From positions 3,162,001 to 3,226,000 of the forward strand of contig NZ_CP019327.1 in assembly GCF_001971705.1 (NCBI RefSeq): a DNA stretch of 64,000 nt. The letters run 5' to 3'. Made by a program: the position numbers and the translations under genes. The stretch's first letter is position 1. Every line of letters begins with the position of its first letter. Positions 1 to 8,052 of this stretch are shown here, piece after piece. The notes under the pieces were generated by a model. The model did no database searches and was not told the DNA's origin. It saw only the letters and a list, made by a program, of their open reading frames with translations. The stretch comes from Natronorubrum daqingense. Lineage in GTDB: Archaea > Halobacteriota > Halobacteria > Halobacteriales > Natrialbaceae.

Positions 1-883
1 ACGCCCCGCGGTCGTTGTGCTCGCGTTTCCGACCGGTTTCCGTGTCGTACAGCGTCACGTGCCCCTCTCGGTAGATCGAACCGTCTTCGGAATCTGCGCT
101 GCCGATTGCGACGACACCGTCCGTCGCCACTGGATAGTTGGGTTGATTGGCTCCCGGTTCGGGGAACCGACTGTACTCGTCGTCTCCTTCCGGTTCGTCG
201 TCGATCCACCGCCTCGAGCCATCGTCGACTTCGAGCGCGTACGCTTTCGATTCACTCGTCGCGAAGACCGCGCCGTCGGCGACGGCGACCGGTTGCTCGT
301 AGAGCGGATCTTCGCTCGGTTCGACGTACCACTCGATTTCGTGATCCTGCACGTCGACGGCGTACAGCGCCCCGTCCGCGACGACGATCACGAGTCCGTC
401 CACGATGGTCGGTGACGGAATTTCCTCGTCGTAGTCGAGGTCGGCCTGACAACAGACCGTGCCGTCGGTCCGATCGACCTTCGTGAGTTGCTCCCCACCG
501 ACGTGGACCGACTCGGGGGTGACTGCAGGTGTTCCGCTCGCGCCCACGTCCTCCGTCTCCCACTCGAGCGATCCGTCGGCCGCGTCGAGCGCGTGGACGC
601 CACCGTTGGCCACCACGAACACGGTTCCGTTGTCGACTGCGACGGGTCCCCCGTGGTCGTACTCCCACACGACGTCGACCGGTTCCTCCGGAGCGCTCGA
701 GGCGGGCACGACGCTGTTGTTGCCCGCGTTTCCGCCGAGTGAGGACCACCCGTCAGCTTCCTCCGACGCTGAGGACTCGGCGGTGGCCACGTCGTTGGCC
801 GCCGTTGCACCAGTGGCGAGCGATCCGAGGGTCAGCGTCACGCCTGCGTACTGCAGGACGCTCCGCCTCGTTTGGTTTGCCAT
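1..883 (-). CDS. Secreted PQQ-like beta-propeller protein (3' end outside window)
   Basis: The frame opens at the ATG at 883 and stays open to the left edge, so the C-terminus is missing. The N-terminus has a twin-arginine signal (RRSVLQ at about residues 6-11, then a short hydrophobic stretch ending near ATGATA), so the protein should be exported folded. The mature part has repeated blades of the type VYAVDVQDHEIEW and VHALDAADGSLEW, the signature of PQQ/BamB-like beta-propellers. Such haloarchaeal proteins sit outside the membrane; their ligands are mostly unknown. Two more propeller genes lie in the window, at 3174 and 53418. Family call is firm, role unknown. Confidence 0.85.
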   Translation of the reverse strand, partial: MANQTRRSVLQYAGVTLTLGSLATGATAANDVATAESSASEEADGWSSLGGNAGNNSVVPASSAPEEPVDVVWEYDHGGPVAVDNGTVFVVANGGVHALDAADGSLEWETEDVGASGTPAVTPESVHVGGEQLTKVDRTDGTVCCQADLDYDEEIPSPTIVDGLVIVVADGALYAVDVQDHEIEWYVEPSEDPLYEQPVAVADGAVFATSESKAYALEVDDGSRRWIDDEPEGDDEYSRFPEPGANQPNYPVATDGVVAIGSADSEDGSIYREGHVTLYDTETGRKREHNDRGA

Positions 884-1269
884 ACAGTAGTGATGAAATT
901 GCTCCGCGTTACCTATCGGTCCGATAGAATCGTTTCTCTGGGCACACACTCTCGTGCAATTGTTCGCTCACTCACAACCATCTCCCATGTGCACCTGCCG
1001 AGTACACCGGTCGAAAAATCGCCGTTTTATCTCGTTTCACGCGTCGATTGTTCACTTCAAAATCACGGGGTTTTACGTCGAGTTGCCGATGCGAAAACGT
1101 CAGACGCACGTCCGACACACCCGATTTTGTCGTTCGTCTCGGTACTCGTGTCCGCGGGTTTCCATGCGAAACGAGGGGGTTCGGTGATTCGCTCGACGGA
1201 ACGACGACTCGAGGCGGGTTCGATTTGTTCAGTTCACGACGGTCACGCCTCGCGACCGAACCGTCAGGG

Positions 1270-1279
1270 TACTTATTGT
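1270..1279 (+). promoter_or_regulatory. TATA box of htpX
   Basis: TACTTATTGTA lies about 25 bases before the htpX ATG at 1302, the spacing of a leaderless archaeal transcript. The rest of the 418-base gap between the divergent propeller gene and htpX (884-1301) shows no coding potential that I can support. Confidence 0.5.
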
Positions 1280-1301
1280 ATCTGAGCCCATTGGTTTCAG
1301 T

Positions 1302-2186
1302 ATGAACTGGCAGGCGGACTGGGGACTTCGGTTTCGGATGTTCTTGACGATGTTCTTGCTCTTTGCGCTGTACATCGTCTTCGCGGGTGCAATCTCCCTC
1401 TACATGGGCGGCAGTATGATCGTCTTCGCGCTCGTCTTCGGCGGATTCTCGCTGGTGCAGTACTTCTACAGTGACACGCTCACGCTCAGAAGTATGGGTG
1501 CACAGACCGTCTCTGCGGAGGAATATCCACAACTTCACGGTTCTATCGAACGCCTCTCACAGCAGGCTGACCTTCCGAAGCCGAAAGTCGCCGTTATCGA
1601 CTCGAACGTCCCGAACGCCTTCGCGACCGGTCGGAACCAGCGAAACGCGGCCGTCGCGGTGACGACGGGGCTGATGCGAACGCTCGACGACGACGAACTC
1701 GACGGCGTCCTCGCACACGAACTCGCGCACGTGAAAAACCGGGATATGATGGTGATGACCATCGCCTCGTTCCTCTCGACCATCGCGTTCATGATCGTTC
1801 GCTGGGGCGCGTTCTTCGGCGGCGGGAATCGCGGCGGCGGGAAAGGCGGGGCCGGGATCATGGTCGCTATCCTCGTCTCCTTGCTCGTCTGGATCATTAG
1901 CTACCTGTTGATCCGCGCGCTCTCGCGCTACCGCGAGTACTCCGCAGACCGCGGGGCCGCCGCCATCACCGGCAACCCCTCCGCGCTCGCCTCCGCACTC
2001 CTCAAAATCTCCGGCGAGATGGACAACGTGCCCAAAAACGACATGCGCGAAGAAGCCGAGATGAACGCCTTCTTCATCATCCCGATCAAGTCGGGTATCG
2101 TCGGGAAACTCTTCAGCACGCACCCCTCGACGGAAAGTCGCGTCGAGGCACTGCGCGACCTCGAGCAGGAAATGCAGGCGTTCTAA
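1302..2186 (+). CDS. htpX: HtpX-type M48 membrane zinc metalloprotease
   Basis: 294 residues, the usual HtpX size. Two hydrophobic segments lie near residues 12-52, then the zinc site HELAH (H139, E140, H143) in VLAHELAHVKNRD, two more membrane segments around a Gly-rich loop, and a further conserved REYSAD segment that supplies the third zinc ligand in the family. HtpX degrades damaged or misassembled membrane proteins from the cytoplasmic side. The ATG at 1302 fits the TATA box 25 bases upstream. The pspAB gene follows after 24 bases, so the two are probably co-transcribed as an envelope-stress unit. Confidence 0.93.
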   Translation: MNWQADWGLRFRMFLTMFLLFALYIVFAGAISLYMGGSMIVFALVFGGFSLVQYFYSDTLTLRSMGAQTVSAEEYPQLHGSIERLSQQADLPKPKVAVIDSNVPNAFATGRNQRNAAVAVTTGLMRTLDDDELDGVLAHELAHVKNRDMMVMTIASFLSTIAFMIVRWGAFFGGGNRGGGKGGAGIMVAILVSLLVWIISYLLIRALSRYREYSADRGAAAITGNPSALASALLKISGEMDNVPKNDMREEAEMNAFFIIPIKSGIVGKLFSTHPSTESRVEALRDLEQEMQAF

Positions 2187-2210
2187 GGCGACACGGTTCT
2201 CACTCGAGAT

Positions 2211-2816
2211 ATGGGACTGCTGGATGGACTTCGTGCCGTACTCGGACTCCGCGCCGAGAGCGATGCGAGACGCGACGCCGACCCCGACGACCTCTTCGGG
2301 ATGAGCACCGCCTACATCACGATGCAGACCGACCTCCGCTACGACTCCGCGGACGTCGGCGCGCTCTGTTTCTCCGGCGTCGACTCGGGCAGCTTTCACG
2401 ATGCCGTCGACGAAGTCGAGGCGATCCTCGAGGCCGGTCGCGAGGAGACCGGCACCGACTTCTCGGTTACGAGCGACGACCACGGCTACCACTGGGTCGT
2501 CCTCGAGGACGACGACCCCGAGGACCTGATCACGAGCATGCACTTCGCCGCGGACACGTTCATCGAACACGGCTACGGCTCCCGCCTGCTCGCTGCCGTA
2601 TTCGCCTACACCCACCGCGACGGACCGGCGTACTGGATCTACTCGTTCCGACGCGGACGCTACTACCCGTTCGCGCCCCGATCCGGCCGCGAACGCGACT
2701 CGAGTGCGGAGTTCAAACTCGAGGCGACACTCGACGGCGAACTCGAGATCGAACGCGAGAAGGAGTACTGGTATCCGCTGTGGCCGAGCGAGCGCGGGAC
2801 ACATCCGTGGGAGTAA
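2211..2816 (+). CDS. pspAB: PspA-associated protein PspAB-like
   Basis: 201 residues, acidic and soluble, with no signal or membrane segment. It begins MGLLDGLRAVLGL and carries a conserved core with YITMQTDLRYDSADVGALCF and the end motif REKEYWYPLWP. I recognise it as the haloarchaeal family annotated PspA-associated protein PspAB, commonly found directly after htpX; that placement is recalled, not computed. The molecular function is not established. The 24-base gap and same strand imply co-expression with HtpX. The reading frame is intact and in the host codon style. Confidence 0.75.
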   Translation: MGLLDGLRAVLGLRAESDARRDADPDDLFGMSTAYITMQTDLRYDSADVGALCFSGVDSGSFHDAVDEVEAILEAGREETGTDFSVTSDDHGYHWVVLEDDDPEDLITSMHFAADTFIEHGYGSRLLAAVFAYTHRDGPAYWIYSFRRGRYYPFAPRSGRERDSSAEFKLEATLDGELEIEREKEYWYPLWPSERGTHPWE

Positions 2817-2951
2817 TTTCCAAATATCACTAAGACATCGTTAAAACTGACCGGCCACCGACAGAACGCACGCATTGTTGGGGTGCTCGCTCGCTTGTAC
2901 CAAATCACATTGGCACCATAGATATCCCGGTGGACGTAGTATGAAGAACTA

Positions 2952-3069
2952 CGGCAGGAAACACTTCCATCTCAGTCACCGGCTGCGTGCCATGCACATC
3001 ACGACAGTCACCGACTGTGTCATGCAGTACTTCAACTGCGCCATACACCAGTTGTTTCGTTTCCTGCCG
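2952..3069. ncRNA. Candidate structured RNA or compound regulatory palindrome
   Basis: An 11-base perfect inverted repeat, CGGCAGGAAAC (2952-2962) and GTTTCCTGCCG (3059-3069), closes a segment with three hairpins. Two are near copies: CAGTC-ACC-GGCTG at 2973-2985 and CAGTC-ACC-GACTG at 3005-3017. Their one difference turns a T-G pair into T-A and so keeps the stem. The third is GCAGT-acttca-ACTGC at 3024-3039. The second extends to a longer irregular stem (2997-3024). It lies in the 357-base gap between pspAB and a propeller gene. Strand is unknown. A 54-codon basic reading frame on the + strand (from 2941) covers it but is unlike haloarchaeal proteins. No known RNA family recognised. Confidence 0.4.
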
Positions 3070-3173
3070 CACCTTTTAGCCCTCGAGTGTCGACGCCGAC
3101 GATAATCGATCTACGCGCCGAACGTCGATCGCTGTCGCATCCATTATATCGGATCGGTCGGTAGCCCCTGACA

Positions 3174-4367
3174 GTGACCAACTGGAACCAGTTCAAAGGC
3201 GACCCGCGACACTCGGGGCGTCGACGCGAACTCGAGGGGCCGAATCGGGTTCGAGAGGCCTGGACGGTCGACCTCGACGGGGACGCCGGGTCTCCAGTCT
3301 ACGATCGCGACACCGTCTACGTCCTGACGAATCGGGCCTGTCACGCGCTCGAGCGAGCGCGCGGACGCGAGCGCTGGACGGTCGAGATTGATGCGGCGGC
3401 CGAGAGTACGCCCGTCGTCACCCGCGACACGCTCTATCTCACCTCCAGCGACGGCACCGTTCGCGCACTCGAGACCACGACGGGCGACCAGCGCTGGGCG
3501 ACGACACTCCCCGGCACGCTCGAGTCGTCGCCCGCACTCGCCGACGGCCTCATCTACGCCGGTCACGAGGCGGGCGTCTCGGCACTCGAGGCCGACACCG
3601 GCGAAATCGTCTGGACGCACGAAACGGACGCCGCAGCCGTCGGCACCCCGGCGGTCGACCGCGTCCGTGACCGAGCACACGGAGACGAGTGGGGAAGCGA
3701 CACGCCGGAAGCGGACGAACTCGACCTCCTCTCGCTCGAGGACGCCCGGATGGACGAGGACGCGTCGCAGGCGGCCGATCGCGACCGCGTCTGCGTTGCC
3801 ACCGCGGACGAACAGGTGCTCGCACTCGAGGCTGACACCGGGGAACCCTGCTGGAACGCGCCGACGAACGGCACGGTCGTCGACGGGCCGACGATCACCG
3901 GCGATCGAGTGTACGTCGCCGACGACAGCGGCACGCTCGTCGCGTTACACGCCGACAGCGGGCAATCGTGGTTCACCTACAAGATCCAGCAGTCGTTCGC
4001 CTCCTCGCCGACCGTCCTTCCCGAGCGCGATACGACGTTCGTCGGCGCGACCGACGGCTACGTCCACGTCACCGACACGACGTTCGGCCGTCGCAAACTC
4101 CGCGGCTGGCTCTTCGCGAAGAAGGGCGTCGCCCTCGACGGGACAATTTCGGCGAGTCCTGCCGTCGCCGGCGAAATCTGCTGTGTTGGCGACTCGACCG
4201 GATCGTTCTATGGGATCGATCTGACCGACGACTGCAACCCCTGCTGGCACGTCGGCCTCGACGGCCCGATCACGGCTCCCCCCGCACTCGGGGAGGACCA
4301 TCTGTTCGTCGTCGGTGGCGACCGACTCTACCGTCTCGAGTGGGACACAGACGAGCGATCGGTCTGA
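3174..4367 (+). CDS. PQQ-like beta-propeller repeat protein, probably cytoplasmic
   Basis: 397 residues with no signal peptide. Propeller blades repeat through the whole length (TVYVLTNRACHALERARGRERW, LYLTSSDGTVRALETTTGDQRW and later variants), each with the Gly-x-x-x-W closing motif of PQQ/BamB-like repeats. A charged insertion of about 40 residues sits near the middle (DELDLLSLEDARMDEDASQ). The start is GTG at 3174, directly before TNWNQFKGDPRHSG, which matches how this family normally begins; no upstream ATG is in frame. The role is unknown. Unlike the propellers at both other loci it should stay inside the cell. Confidence 0.8.
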   Translation: MTNWNQFKGDPRHSGRRRELEGPNRVREAWTVDLDGDAGSPVYDRDTVYVLTNRACHALERARGRERWTVEIDAAAESTPVVTRDTLYLTSSDGTVRALETTTGDQRWATTLPGTLESSPALADGLIYAGHEAGVSALEADTGEIVWTHETDAAAVGTPAVDRVRDRAHGDEWGSDTPEADELDLLSLEDARMDEDASQAADRDRVCVATADEQVLALEADTGEPCWNAPTNGTVVDGPTITGDRVYVADDSGTLVALHADSGQSWFTYKIQQSFASSPTVLPERDTTFVGATDGYVHVTDTTFGRRKLRGWLFAKKGVALDGTISASPAVAGEICCVGDSTGSFYGIDLTDDCNPCWHVGLDGPITAPPALGEDHLFVVGGDRLYRLEWDTDERSV

Positions 4368-4530
4368 ATCGGACGGTTCGACTAGAAATTTACGCCTCGA
4401 TTCTTCGCTCCCAATGACTGCTGGCACTGTTCGATCACCGTCTCGCTTTCACTGGTAAACCTGTTGATTAGTTGGAACGCAACCCCGTCGCAGTCTTGCA
4501 CTTTCACTTTCACCCTCCTGTTAACGAGGG

Positions 4531-4537
4531 TTTATGG
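4531..4537 (+). promoter_or_regulatory. TATA box of radA
   Basis: TTTATGG ends 24 bases before the ATG at 4561. This spacing favours the leaderless start at 4561 over an upstream in-frame ATG at 4534, which lies inside the promoter itself. Confidence 0.55.
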
Positions 4538-4560
4538 GGGGTCCGGCACAAGCAGGGAGT

Positions 4561-5592
4561 ATGCCCGAAGCAGATCTCGAAACACTTCCCGGCGTTGGAC
4601 CGGCAACCGCAGACAAACTCCACGACGCAGGCTTCGAATCCTTCCAGAGCCTGGCCGTTGCCTCGCCGTCGGAACTCTCGAACACGGCCGACGTCGGCGA
4701 GTCGACGGCCTCCGACATCGTCCGTGCCGCTCGTGACGCCGCCGACATCGGCGGCTTCGAGACCGGTACAACCGTGCTCGAGCGACGAAACGAAATCGGC
4801 AAGCTAAGCTGGCACATCGACGAGGTCGACGACCTCCTCGGTGGCGGAATCGAGACCCAGTCGATCACCGAAGTCTACGGCGAGTTCGGATCCGGGAAGT
4901 CCCAGGTCACCCACCAGATGGCCGTCAACGTCCAGCTTCCCAAGGAAGTCGGCGGCCTCCACGGCAGCGCGATTTTCGTAGACAGTGAGGACACGTTCCG
5001 ACCGGAGCGAATCGACGACATGGTTCGTGGACTGCCAGACGAAGCGATCAACGCGACCCTCGAGGACCGCGAAATGGAGGGCTCGGCCGACGACGAGGCC
5101 GCCGTCGACGAACTCATCGAGGACATCCTCGACAAGATCCACGTCGCGAAGGCGTTCAACTCCAACCACCAGATGCTGCTCGCCGAGAAGGCGAAGGAAC
5201 TGGCCAGCGAACACGAGGACTCGGAGTACCCCGTCCGACTGCTCGCAGTCGACTCGCTGACCGCTCACTTCCGTGCTGAGTACGTCGGTCGTGGCCAGCT
5301 CGCAGACCGACAGCAGAAACTCAACAAGCACCTCCACGACCTCGACAAGGTCGGAAACCTCTACAACGCCGCCGTGATCGTGACGAACCAGGTCGCCTCG
5401 AACCCCGACTCGTTCTTCGGCGACCCAACGCAGCCGATCGGTGGCAACATCCTCGGCCACAAGTCCACCTTCCGAATCTACCTCCGCAAATCCAAAGGCG
5501 ACAAACGAATCGTCCGCCTCGTCGACGCGCCAAACCTCGCCGACGGCGAGGGCGTCATGCGCGTCCAAGACGGTGGCCTGAAGCCAGAGTAA
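4561..5592 (+). CDS. radA: DNA repair and recombination protein RadA
   Basis: 343 residues from ATG 4561, the length I know for haloarchaeal RadA. An N-terminal helix-hairpin-helix domain ([12 protein letters not shown], residues about 9-60) precedes the RecA-fold core. Walker A is GEFGSGKS at residues 107-114, and Walker B lies in [15 protein letters not shown]. The C-terminal DNA-binding loop region holds [20 protein letters not shown]. RadA forms the ATP-dependent filament on single-stranded DNA that drives strand exchange in homologous recombination. It is transcribed alone, with its own TATA box and a hairpin pair after the stop. A longer start at 4534 would overlap the promoter. Confidence 0.98.
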
Positions 5593-5628
5593 CAACCACA
5601 CCGTTCGATTTTCGATTTTCGCGTGAAA

Positions 5629-5659
5629 CTCGAGAGGCGTCTCTCGAGCGTCACGCTCG
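5629..5659. terminator. Two adjacent hairpins between convergent radA and sufU
   Basis: CTCGAGA-ggcgtc-TCTCGAG (5629-5648) is followed by CGAGCG-tca-CGCTCG (5645-5659), sharing four bases. They lie in the 126-base gap where radA and sufU converge, so they could end transcription from either side or act as alternative folds. Confidence 0.4.
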
Positions 5660-5718
5660 GTGCTGTGTTTCTCAGACGCAGCGAAAAGCGGCCGGGTGAC
5701 TGGCGTCGAACGGTTCCG

Positions 5719-6138
5719 TTAGTCTTCGGTCGTCGTCTTCTCGACGTCGAGTTCGCCCTGGTAAATCTCCGCGCCGTCCTGGGCGACCTTCTCCGCCAAC
5801 ACGGCACACTTGACTCGCATCGGCGAGATGTCGACGCCGAGCATGTCGATGACGTCGTCGCGATCCATCTCGAGTAGTTCGTCGACCGTCTTGCCTGCGA
5901 GCTCAGTCGAGAGCATGCTCGCCGAGGCTTGACTGATCGCACAGCCATCACCGGAGAAGGCCACGCGTTCGATCGTCTCCTCGTCGTCGGCGAGGACGAC
6001 GTCCATCCGAATCTCGTCACCGCACATCGGGTTCTCGCCGATGTGGGTAAACGTTGGATCCTCGAGTTGCCCGTAGTTACGCGGGTTCTTGTAGTGGTCG
6101 AGAATCTGCTGTCGGTACATATCCGAGCCCAGTCCCAT
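5719..6138 (-). CDS. sufU: SufU/IscU-type iron-sulfur cluster scaffold protein
   Basis: 139 residues. The three ligand cysteines are in their family contexts: C39 in NPMCGDE, C66 in SGDGCAIS, and C111 in RVKCAVL; Asp41 is also present. The spacing between the second and third cysteine is that of the SufU branch. These proteins accept sulfur from a SufS-type cysteine desulfurase and assist Fe-S cluster assembly in the cytoplasm. No other suf gene is nearby. The start ATG at 6138 gives MGLGSDMYRQQILDHYKNPRN, the normal family N-terminus. The gene converges with radA. Confidence 0.93.
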   Translation of the reverse strand: MGLGSDMYRQQILDHYKNPRNYGQLEDPTFTHIGENPMCGDEIRMDVVLADDEETIERVAFSGDGCAISQASASMLSTELAGKTVDELLEMDRDDVIDMLGVDISPMRVKCAVLAEKVAQDGAEIYQGELDVEKTTTED

Positions 6139-6310
6139 CGTTGTATCCGATTAGACGCGAGAGTTGTAAAAGGGTTCCGGGGCGACACACGAGGCTATCT
6201 CGACGGTTCGTCGTCTCGAACACGACCGCCCGCGTGACCACCTCGAGACAGCAGTCGACTCGCTTTTTCTCGGTCGGGTCCGATACACACCGTGAGAATC
6301 TGCTGGGGCC

Positions 6311-6556
6311 CTACGAGCGCGCCTCAGTCGGCGGATTGAGGTAACACGCGTCGGCGATCACGACCACGCCGACGAGTGACGCGACGAGCATCGTCACTAC
6401 GAGTGGAACGCTCGAGAGTCCCGCCACGAGTATCGCGCTCGCGTATGCAACGGGAATAATTCCCAGCAGGACGTCGTATCGCGATGCCGCGGCGAGCGTT
6501 GCAACCACCGTCTCGAGTGGATCCGGAACGGATCCGTCGATTGTCGTCTCTTGCAT
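6311..6556 (-). CDS. Small conserved-looking membrane protein
   Basis: 81 residues from ATG 6556. A soluble N-terminus (MQETTIDGSVPDPLETVVATL) precedes two closely spaced hydrophobic segments (YDVLLGIIPVAYASAILVAGL and VPLVVTMLVASLVGVVVIAD), then a short tail. A longer frame from 6634 exists, but its extra residues (MDSVIATDGTAFFSRS) are unlike a haloarchaeal protein start. It lies between sufU and the HD hydrolase on the same strand, about 240 bases from either. I do not recognise the family. Confidence 0.6.
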   Translation of the reverse strand: MQETTIDGSVPDPLETVVATLAAASRYDVLLGIIPVAYASAILVAGLSSVPLVVTMLVASLVGVVVIADACYLNPPTEARS

Positions 6557-6796
6557 CGGTCTCACCTCGGCACACAATAATACGACAGAGCGACTGAAAA
6601 ACGCCGTGCCGTCTGTCGCAATGACGCTATCCAAAATTGAACTGACTCGCTGCAGTGACTGTCGAGTTCGTGGCCGTCCCTCGTCCGTCTCCCCCTCTCA
6701 CTCGTCTCTTCATGCTGAGCGCTCTCGAGTCGGCCGGTGCCTCGAGTCTTCTCGCTGAACGGTCTCGATTCGAGGTTCCCGCGACCAGATATCCAC

Positions 6797-7435
6797 CTAC
6801 CGCTCACCGGCACGTTCCGCATCGAATTGCTCGAGGAACGTTCGCACGAACTGTGCCCGCTCCGTCGCGAGTTCCCGACCGACGTCGGTGTACATCCGCT
6901 CGGGCAGGTCGAGGATCTTCTTGTGGAGGTGGTTGTACTGCGTCTTCCCCGACACCGTCTCGTCCTCGGCGACCGGGACGGCAGGATCGTGCATCGCCTC
7001 CTCGAGCGTGCCGCCGTGGGCGAACACCCGCGCGACCCCGACGGCACCCAACGCGTCGAGGTTGTCCGCATCGCTGACGATTTCGGCCTCGAGCGTCTCC
7101 GGTTCGATCGCGTTCGAGTATCGGTGAGCGCGAATACACTGCTCTACGTGTTCGACGGTGTCCGACGAGACGTCGTGGGATTCGAGTATCCGTCCCGCTT
7201 CCGTGGCTCCCCAACTCGCGTGATCGTCGATCTCGCCGCGATCCTCCCGTTCCCGGCCGATATCGTGGAGGGCCACGGCGAGTGTGACGACGGTCTCGTC
7301 GATGGAACCTGACTCCGGATGGTCGCTGATCAGTCTCGAGGCCAGCGCGTCGACGCGTTCGACGTGGTGCCAATCGTGTGCTGGTGGGGCCTCCTCGAAA
7401 TAGGTCTGGGCGCGAATTTGGACTGCCTCGAGCAT
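6797..7435 (-). CDS. HD-domain phosphohydrolase
   Basis: 212 residues. The metal-binding HD pattern is complete: HDWHHVERV (H20, D21, H24), LALHDIGRE-type motif VALHDIGRE (H57, D58), a later H in EDHASWGA-like DDHASWGATEA, and a distal D in EIVSDADNLDALGA. HD proteins of this kind hydrolyse phosphate esters, often nucleotides or cyclic nucleotides; the substrate here cannot be read. The start ATG 7435 begins MLEAVQIRAQTYFEEA. It is not in an obvious operon: about 240 bases separate it from the next gene downstream. Confidence 0.88.
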   Translation of the reverse strand: MLEAVQIRAQTYFEEAPPAHDWHHVERVDALASRLISDHPESGSIDETVVTLAVALHDIGREREDRGEIDDHASWGATEAGRILESHDVSSDTVEHVEQCIRAHRYSNAIEPETLEAEIVSDADNLDALGAVGVARVFAHGGTLEEAMHDPAVPVAEDETVSGKTQYNHLHKKILDLPERMYTDVGRELATERAQFVRTFLEQFDAERAGER

Positions 7436-7515
7436 GGTGAGTAGTGGCGTGAAACCGTGGATAAACGCTTCGTCTCCGGTCTCTCCTCGAGTCGACCGTT
7501 TCGCTCCTATCGCCA

Positions 7516-7567
7516 GACGGTGGGCACCGGACCCAGTGGCTGGTTCGGTTCAGGGTTGAGACCGGGT
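7516..7567. repeat. Diverged repeat, copy 1
   Basis: A 52-base stretch including CCAGTGGCTGgTTCGGTT matches 16235-16287 at about 42 of 53 aligned positions (counted by eye). Both copies lie shortly upstream of a minus-strand start codon (7435 here, 16216 at the other). Whether they are remnants of a mobile sequence or a shared promoter region is unclear. Confidence 0.45.
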
Positions 7568-7720
7568 GTTTTCGAAACGATGGATGGGCGTTTCGTCCAG
7601 TTCGAAGCTGAATACCGGACGAATCCATTTCGGATACACTCTAGGTTCGATCTTGCAGCACGTCGTTGGTAAGAACCCTATCAGATGGGTGATATATGTG
7701 TCTCTAGATGGTGATAAATC

Positions 7721-7760
7721 GGTGGACATAACCTACGGATACCCCTACCCGTTGTCCACC
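7721..7760. other. Perfect 8-base inverted repeat in a 617-base gap
   Basis: GGTGGACA (7721-7728) and TGTCCACC (7753-7760) are exact inverse copies 24 bases apart. They lie in the AT-richer gap 7436-8052 between the HD gene and RNase J. Apart from this and the repeat at 7516 I see nothing codable in that gap. It could be an operator for the RNase J gene 290 bases downstream, or chance. Confidence 0.25.
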
Positions 7761-8052
7761 TACCTACAAGATCGGTCACTCGATAGCGGAATATGTTTTG
7801 TGGTTCGATTTCCTCGCTCATCTCTCCGCTCTACACTCTCGTAATCCGGGAGTACTTACGTGTGGAAGGCCGTTATCCACCTAACCGAAAGAGGCGCTGT
7901 CCTTGGCACAGTCGGGACCGAACGTTCGATTTTGGAACCGCCACGGACGTGTTCGACTTGCTCGCTCACGTTACTGACCGTTCGGATTCCCACGAGGCGG
8001 CCAGTCTGGCTGCGAGGCTGTGTCGTACGGACTGCTATGATCGGGTTTACCA

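Follow-up and report, generated by a model that had tools for sequence, protein, structure and literature searches.

The 64,000-nt stretch of haloarchaeal DNA analyzed here (the window) probably encodes a small folded RNA in the interval between pspAB and a PQQ-type propeller gene, and this RNA may shut off a target gene elsewhere in the genome. We consider it likely that it is a stand-alone trans-acting antisense sRNA with an operator-controlled promoter of its own, which would cover an mRNA with almost no leader at its 5' end. Comparison of related genomes revealed an RNA family with covarying pairs, an operator-like site at a fixed distance from the RNA stem, and conserved complementarity to the start codon region of one gene. 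The RNA would be transcribed from the promoter downstream of pspAB, its closing stem would join the two RNA ends, and its inner hairpin would present the 13-mer CTGCGCCATACAC, which would pair in trans with one mRNA from -4 to +9 around the AUG. Since the target appears to be nearly leaderless, this pairing would cover the whole 5' end of the mRNA and block initiation. The parts of the locus are listed in Table 1.

Table 1. Parts of the RNA locus and its neighbors, in window positions
Feature	Position	Strand	Basis or remark
pspAB (PspA associated protein B), conserved upstream neighbor	2211..2816	+	Pfam PF22742, E=4.9e-73
Operator-like palindrome CCAAATCACATTGG	2900..2913	+	1 mismatch to consensus CCAAA-N4-KTTGG
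TATA-like box ATAGATAT	2918..2925	+	TAT at operator +23..25 in relatives
Closing stem, 5' arm CGGCAGGAAAC	2952..2962	+	Inverted repeat and alignment
Spacer between stem arm and inner hairpin	2963..3032	+	Carries the insert
Inner hairpin CAACTG-CGCCATACAC-CAGTTG, 6 pairs	3033..3054	+	
Antisense 13-mer CTGCGCCATACAC	3036..3048	+	Antisense to the target mRNA around its start codon
Closing stem, 3' arm GTTTCCTGCCG	3059..3069	+	Inverted repeat and alignment
Short pyrimidine/T tract CACCTTTT after the stem	3070..3077	+	Possible 3' end; putative termination
PQQ-type propeller gene, downstream neighbor	3174..4367	+	PF13360

Fold and distribution of the RNA

The initial annotation had proposed an undescribed structured RNA at this place, with an 11-base closing stem around three hairpins, two of which were paralogous and were credited with a compensatory difference. 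The structured RNA was borne out by our analysis; the compensation in these two hairpins was not. The closing stem is a perfect 11-bp inverted repeat whose arms lie 96 nt apart; it starts 136 nt from the last base of pspAB and ends 105 nt from the first base of the propeller gene. The 118-nt interval, which is bounded by its own stem, folded better than 200 of 200 dinucleotide shuffles on both strands, with z values of -5.31 (plus strand) and -4.10 (minus strand). When flanks were included (141 nt), the z values were -3.50 (plus) and -3.16 (minus), and 2/200 and 1/200 shuffles, respectively, folded as well.

DNA searches of 10 Natronorubrum genomes and 125 Natrialbaceae genomes returned the same place with conserved blocks, plus weak chance-like matches, and 31 loci were aligned. 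The near-invariant blocks are CGGCAGG (in which G3 may be A), CTGCGCCATACACCAGTTG, and CCTG[CT]CG. Both sides of the stem have changed in L037 and L043 (CGACAGG with CCTGTCG) and in L055 (CGGCAGGG with CCCTGCCG), and breakage is confined to the innermost pair, in 4 rows. A plain MAFFT alignment of these 31 close relatives gave thin covariation: two-sided changes were found at 2 pairs and in 3 cells (shuffles 0.2 each), there were 3 pair types versus 3.1 in shuffles, and three slid controls scored above the real arms (0.032–0.047 versus 0.030). In an alignment of 65 family members, which was fitted to the covariance model R1 and hence favors structure, 8 of the 15 pairs displayed two-sided changes. 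The number of such cells was 46, as compared with 10.5 in shuffles (0/500 as high) and at most 19 with slid arms. In the inner hairpin of these 65 members, 98.3% of the lettered cells were paired and two-sided changes occurred at 3 pairs, with 12–20 of the 64 distinct rows gapped at each pair. The compensatory changes are thus located in the closing stem and the third hairpin. Rfam release 15 gave no match at E<=5 to window positions 1–8000, nor at E<=0.5 to 8 loci of relatives and paralogues. A structured RNA without an Rfam match is well supported at this interval; its length would be about 120 nt in the window and about 60–100 nt in relatives.

The two paralogous copies, CAGTC-ACC-GGCTG and CAGTC-ACC-GACTG, do exist as sequence. 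They belong to a 16-nt repeat (2973–2988 and 3005–3020) in an insert that, among the 31 aligned loci, is found only in the window genome (G000) and G005, and they are therefore a lineage-specific addition rather than a conserved part of the RNA. The minimum-energy fold forms neither of them, and the first copy in G005 also reads GACTG, which makes the difference a one-sided U-A/U-G change. In the same fold of the window RNA, part of the 3033–3054 hairpin pairs with the insert instead. Of 30 members folded, 28 left the loop core CCATACA unpaired with a probability of 0.98–0.99; for the window RNA and G005, where the insert competes with the loop, this probability was 0.59. The spacer of most aligned relatives contains 1–3 copies of CCACATCATCA, some imperfect, in place of which the window has the insert. 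A pattern for the second conserved element, TGATGATGTGGC, was found in at least 95 of the 125 genomes, at RNA loci as well as other places, and its reversed control was frequent too. A 54-codon ORF (ATG 2941 to 3105), which the initial annotation had weighed as a possible protein, is not conserved in frame: its start is ACG in G005, its interior is mostly the lineage-specific insert, and locus lengths among relatives differ by amounts indivisible by 3.

A search of relatives with a covariance model, as had been suggested, recovered the family within the Natrialbaceae. Under stricter filters and at E<=1, matches were found in 62 of 392 sampled genomes of the order, 60 of them in Natrialbaceae, and there was no convincing member outside this family among the genomes sampled. 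The two outside matches (G306 and G340) had no operator at the expected place and were left out of all counts. Loci with lower scores turned out to be either variant forms at the pspAB place or paralogues next to different genes, and almost all of them shared the upstream region. In the window genome, the model found this place alone, on both strands, with no second whole copy (next best E=1), and phage and plasmid records contained no DNA match to 2890–3090 at E<=0.1. A 17-base loop pattern had 68 exact matches in the named genome collection. By title, 19 of them come from Natrialbaceae genera; the remaining 49 were bacterial and at about chance level (approximately 60 estimated over 257 Gb).

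pspAB lies upstream in 30 of the 31 loci, in L045 as a 3' fragment, and just 479 nt of upstream sequence was covered at the remaining locus, L048. CCCTTTC-like tracts follow the stem in many relatives. Two RNA copies lie 2.5 kb apart in G071 (L103:1981-2070 and 4534-4607), the second after the 3' fragment of pspAB, and in G098 the RNA (L098:2045-2125) contains two copies of the antisense 13-mer at a distance of 28 nt. Further along the window, the ORF at 5719–6138 (minus strand) encodes what we take, from its look, to be a SufU/IscU-type Fe-S scaffold protein.

Promoter and antisense match

Palindromic protein sites had been considered as an explanation for the hairpins. This did not hold for the stem-loop itself, and an operator-like palindrome was instead found just upstream of it. 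Allowing at most one mismatch, we found the operator CCAAA-N4-KTTGG in 63 of the 68 family loci. Among 1360 stretches of 80 nt picked at random from the same loci, 22 reached this level, and some of these may coincide in part with real operator sites; the consensus itself was derived from these loci. The distance from the operator to the stem is 52 nt in 43 loci, 54 nt in 23, and 53 or 51 nt in one each, and TAT occupies operator positions +23..25 in 59 of the 68 loci. On the usual archaeal TATA spacing, transcription would start at about 2948–2952, at the stem, and the RNA gene thus appears, by sequence, to have its own promoter. We presumed a resemblance of the operator to Bat/NarO-type operators. 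This candidate was rejected, as the motif CGAAYATDKTYG in the available part of PMC10062603 differs in sequence.

The 13-mer CTGCGCCATACAC is exactly antisense to GTGTATGGCGCAG, the start codon region of one orthologous gene. In the window genome this target is located at G000:C2:113930-114862 on the minus strand and encodes an exported protein of about 315 residues, which begins with MAQ[NK]PR[TS]SE[TS]D. When GTGTATGGCGCAG was searched with at most 1 mismatch in the 10 genus genomes, all exact matches other than the RNA itself fell on the start codon of one orthologue. G001 and G006 have the target start with one mismatch, and the other one-mismatch matches were at unrelated places and no commoner than those of the reversed control. 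In the 125 family genomes the exact 13-mer occurred at 132 sites, versus 7 for the reversed control: 86 were RNA genes, 45 were target start codons, and 1 was neither (in G039, with no operator seen). Hence 45 of the 46 non-RNA sites are on the start codon of one gene, and in all the cases read the mRNA had the sense and the RNA the antisense form of the 13-mer. The results showed that complementarity to a translation start encoded elsewhere is conserved in this RNA family.

The orthologue was found in 114 of the 125 genomes at E<=1e-30, a count that includes distant homologues. Target starts were read in 98 genomes, the other 27 having no match, more distant homologues only, or unread starts. 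At least 12 contiguous pairs (G-U counted) were seen in 75 of 75 loop-bearing and 7 of 23 loop-less genomes (Fisher p 2.6e-13, relatedness ignored). G021, whose loops are one base short of, or off, the 13-mer, was counted as loop-bearing, and of the 23 loop-less genomes all but one, G045 (55% complete), were covered by a model search as well. In a target protein tree with the site codons omitted, 2–3 of 5 supported pairs differed in the same way and none in the opposite way (p 0.25–0.5), so that the association depends on a small number of independent changes and does not reach significance there. The base before the AUG was T in 75 of 75 loop-bearing and 9 of 23 loop-less genomes; here, 1–2 of 5 independent pairs went the same way and none the opposite way. 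Running counter to the pairing model, no loop RNA was found in G043, G045, and G046, although their target is exact, nor in G025, G060, G063, and G073, where 12 pairs are kept. Conversely, in G103 and G104 the loop RNA is present and the target is represented by distant homologues only.

The window hairpin formed a 13-nt run with the target at -26.1 kcal/mol, whereas among the starts of 31 window ORFs chosen by a simple rule the highest-ranking one gave 7 nt and -17.6 kcal/mol, so that the target outranked all 31; the energy of the 13-mer duplex was -23.6 kcal/mol. The annotated CDS in H. turkmenica starts at the same ATG, and a TATA-like element, TTTATG, lies 27–32 nt before it. This spacing suggests that the target mRNA is nearly leaderless, starting a few bases before the AUG.

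A further stretch after the target start codon, CCCGTACGTCCGA with near variants (L289:733-770), is conserved at the DNA level in many genomes. As it extends beyond the pairing site, not all of the constraint on the target comes from the RNA. The exported protein had no match in Pfam (E<=1) or NCBIfam. We call it Tat-like on the strength of its RR motif, and a beta-helix fold is a guess based on the weak Beta_helix match of a neighboring gene, which is below the family cut-off, and on the name of one 35%-identical homologue.

Alternative explanations

It is conceivable, though unlikely, that the RNA binds a protein or acts as a sponge, in which case the repeated CCACATCATCA would be bound by the protein and the start codon match would be secondary or a shared protein site. 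The repetition of CCACATCATCA in several members is in keeping with this, as is its retention in members of genus g9 (L105, L108, and L117) that have lost the loop. Neither the concentration of the non-RNA 13-mer sites on a single start codon nor the constant sense and antisense orientation is readily explained in this way, and the window RNA and G005 have kept the loop without any intact CCACATCATCA. The position of the RNA between two genes could instead point to a cis-acting element (5' leader, attenuator, or terminator) that belongs to the propeller gene or to pspAB. The propeller gene was indeed present in the downstream DNA examined at 23 of the 31 loci; yet it was not found at the other 8 and was displaced by 500–1400 nt in some others, family members elsewhere adjoin unrelated genes, and the propeller gene has, as read from its sequence, a TATA-like element of its own at about 3145, a leaderless distance. 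We therefore regard a cis-acting role as quite improbable.

Least probable of all, and in our view hardly credible, is that the feature acts as DNA, either as a group of palindromic sites for proteins or as a miniature mobile element with the inverted repeats at its termini. Such an element would fit the perfect 11-bp repeats and their spacing of 96 nt, and with one mismatch allowed the stem arm had 97 scattered matches in the genome, versus 40 for the reversed pattern. Against this stand the lack of a second whole copy in the genome, the place after pspAB in 30 of the 31 loci, the conserved internal loop, and the operator-like site and TATA element at fixed spacing. The single copy and the lack of dispersed copies speak against a miniature inverted-repeat element.

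Operator-sharing RNAs and known systems

A pattern of operator plus TATA that had been derived from the RNA loci, with at most 1 mismatch allowed, matched in all of 20 genomes, with 70 matches in total versus 2 for the reversed control. Twenty of these places were read, along with 7 loci that were returned with matches (2 of which repeat among the 20). At 10 of the 20 places, a similar RNA-like stem with a different loop lies ahead of a cysteine-desulfurase-like gene (named from its sequence), and L452, L454, L461, and L465 have the stem with other loops and other neighbors. Among the ten is a second scaffold stem of the window genome itself, with the same operator and another loop, at G000:C1:2648492 (L448, from base 193); desulfurase-linked stems were likewise seen in L450, L451, L453, L455, L458, L459, L460, L462, and L464. 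Six relatives have a desulfurase-linked RNA with the operator at roughly 6–14 kb from the pspAB RNA. The g9 members have kept the stem and operator with a different loop, and the start of the old target also differs in this genus. At L404, L405, L406, and L412, which come from genomes devoid of the CTGCGCCATACAC loop, the same operator is followed by scaffold RNAs whose loops differ. Nine other scaffold RNAs were compared with 5 start codons on the plasmid of one relative, and no run longer than 9 nt was found.

A nearly leaderless DUF7344 gene (PF24035, E=1e-25) follows the operator at G000:C1:2241420 (L449, from base 221); its start codon is 52 nt from the first base of the operator, as is likewise the case in several relatives. 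The Pfam scan covered the DUF7344 protein of the window genome, and similar genes in L438, L440, and L446 were recognized by eye. The site reads CCAAATCGTTTTGGAAACGGGCTTAT, apart from one base in G000, and is found again in G003, G007, G019, G021, G024, G077, and G090. An operator-like site is thus common to a regulator-like gene and the RNA genes, which makes the DUF7344 gene the best candidate for the regulator; we infer its binding from the shared site. We put forward tentatively, and with some doubt, that Natrialbaceae possess co-regulated sRNAs with one scaffold and interchangeable loops under an autoregulated DUF7344 factor, each silencing leaderless mRNAs. The scaffold would consist of the operator, TATA element, and closing stem, and silencing would occur by covering the 5' AUG.

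The bacterial multicopy sRNA families Qrr and OmrA/OmrB also comprise several related sRNAs with one regulator; unlike them, the RNAs described here are archaeal and have an archaeal TATA-type promoter. According to the available parts of the reports, the trans-encoded archaeal sRNA162 of Methanosarcina mazei masks a ribosome binding site (PMC3510493), and loop 2 of sRNA154 from the same organism masks that of glnA2 (PMC5867862). The likeness, which is one of description and not of sequence, is that an intergenic archaeal sRNA uses a loop or linker to pair where translation of a distant mRNA begins. Our RNA differs in that it comes from another lineage, that it would cover the AUG together with the 5' end of a haloarchaeal mRNA that seems to have no leader, and that several RNAs with a shared scaffold and different loops lie behind one operator. 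sRNA132 of Haloferax volcanii is described in the accessible part of PMC6560208 as a haloarchaeal intergenic sRNA acting on an mRNA; by description rather than sequence, it and other haloarchaeal intergenic sRNAs share these two attributes with the present RNA, whose family had no convincing member outside Natrialbaceae in the order genomes sampled. The known kind is the trans-acting antisense sRNA; the haloarchaeal setting, the seemingly leaderless target, and the modular loops behind one operator would be new.

Among the literature matches listed, no paper named the RNA or the target, and there was nothing on DUF7344 or on pspAB with haloarchaea. The evidence that the RNA and its target are new to the literature is nevertheless weak, because the 22 conserved intergenic Halobacteria RNAs without assigned function in a metatranscriptome study, as far as its available part tells (PMC7002113), could include the window RNA.

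In the part of PMC5867862 at hand, the characterization of archaeal sRNAs is described as being at a very early stage, and the share of leaderless transcripts in haloarchaea is put at 72%. This raises the question of how an sRNA works on mRNAs that offer no ribosome binding site for masking. Here, genome sequences show the RNA together with its promoter, a candidate for its regulator, and a target site under conservation, so that this question can be tested directly. It is rare for the target of an archaeal small RNA to be visible from evolution alone. If true, the proposed action would be an antisense control mode suited to archaea with leaderless mRNAs.
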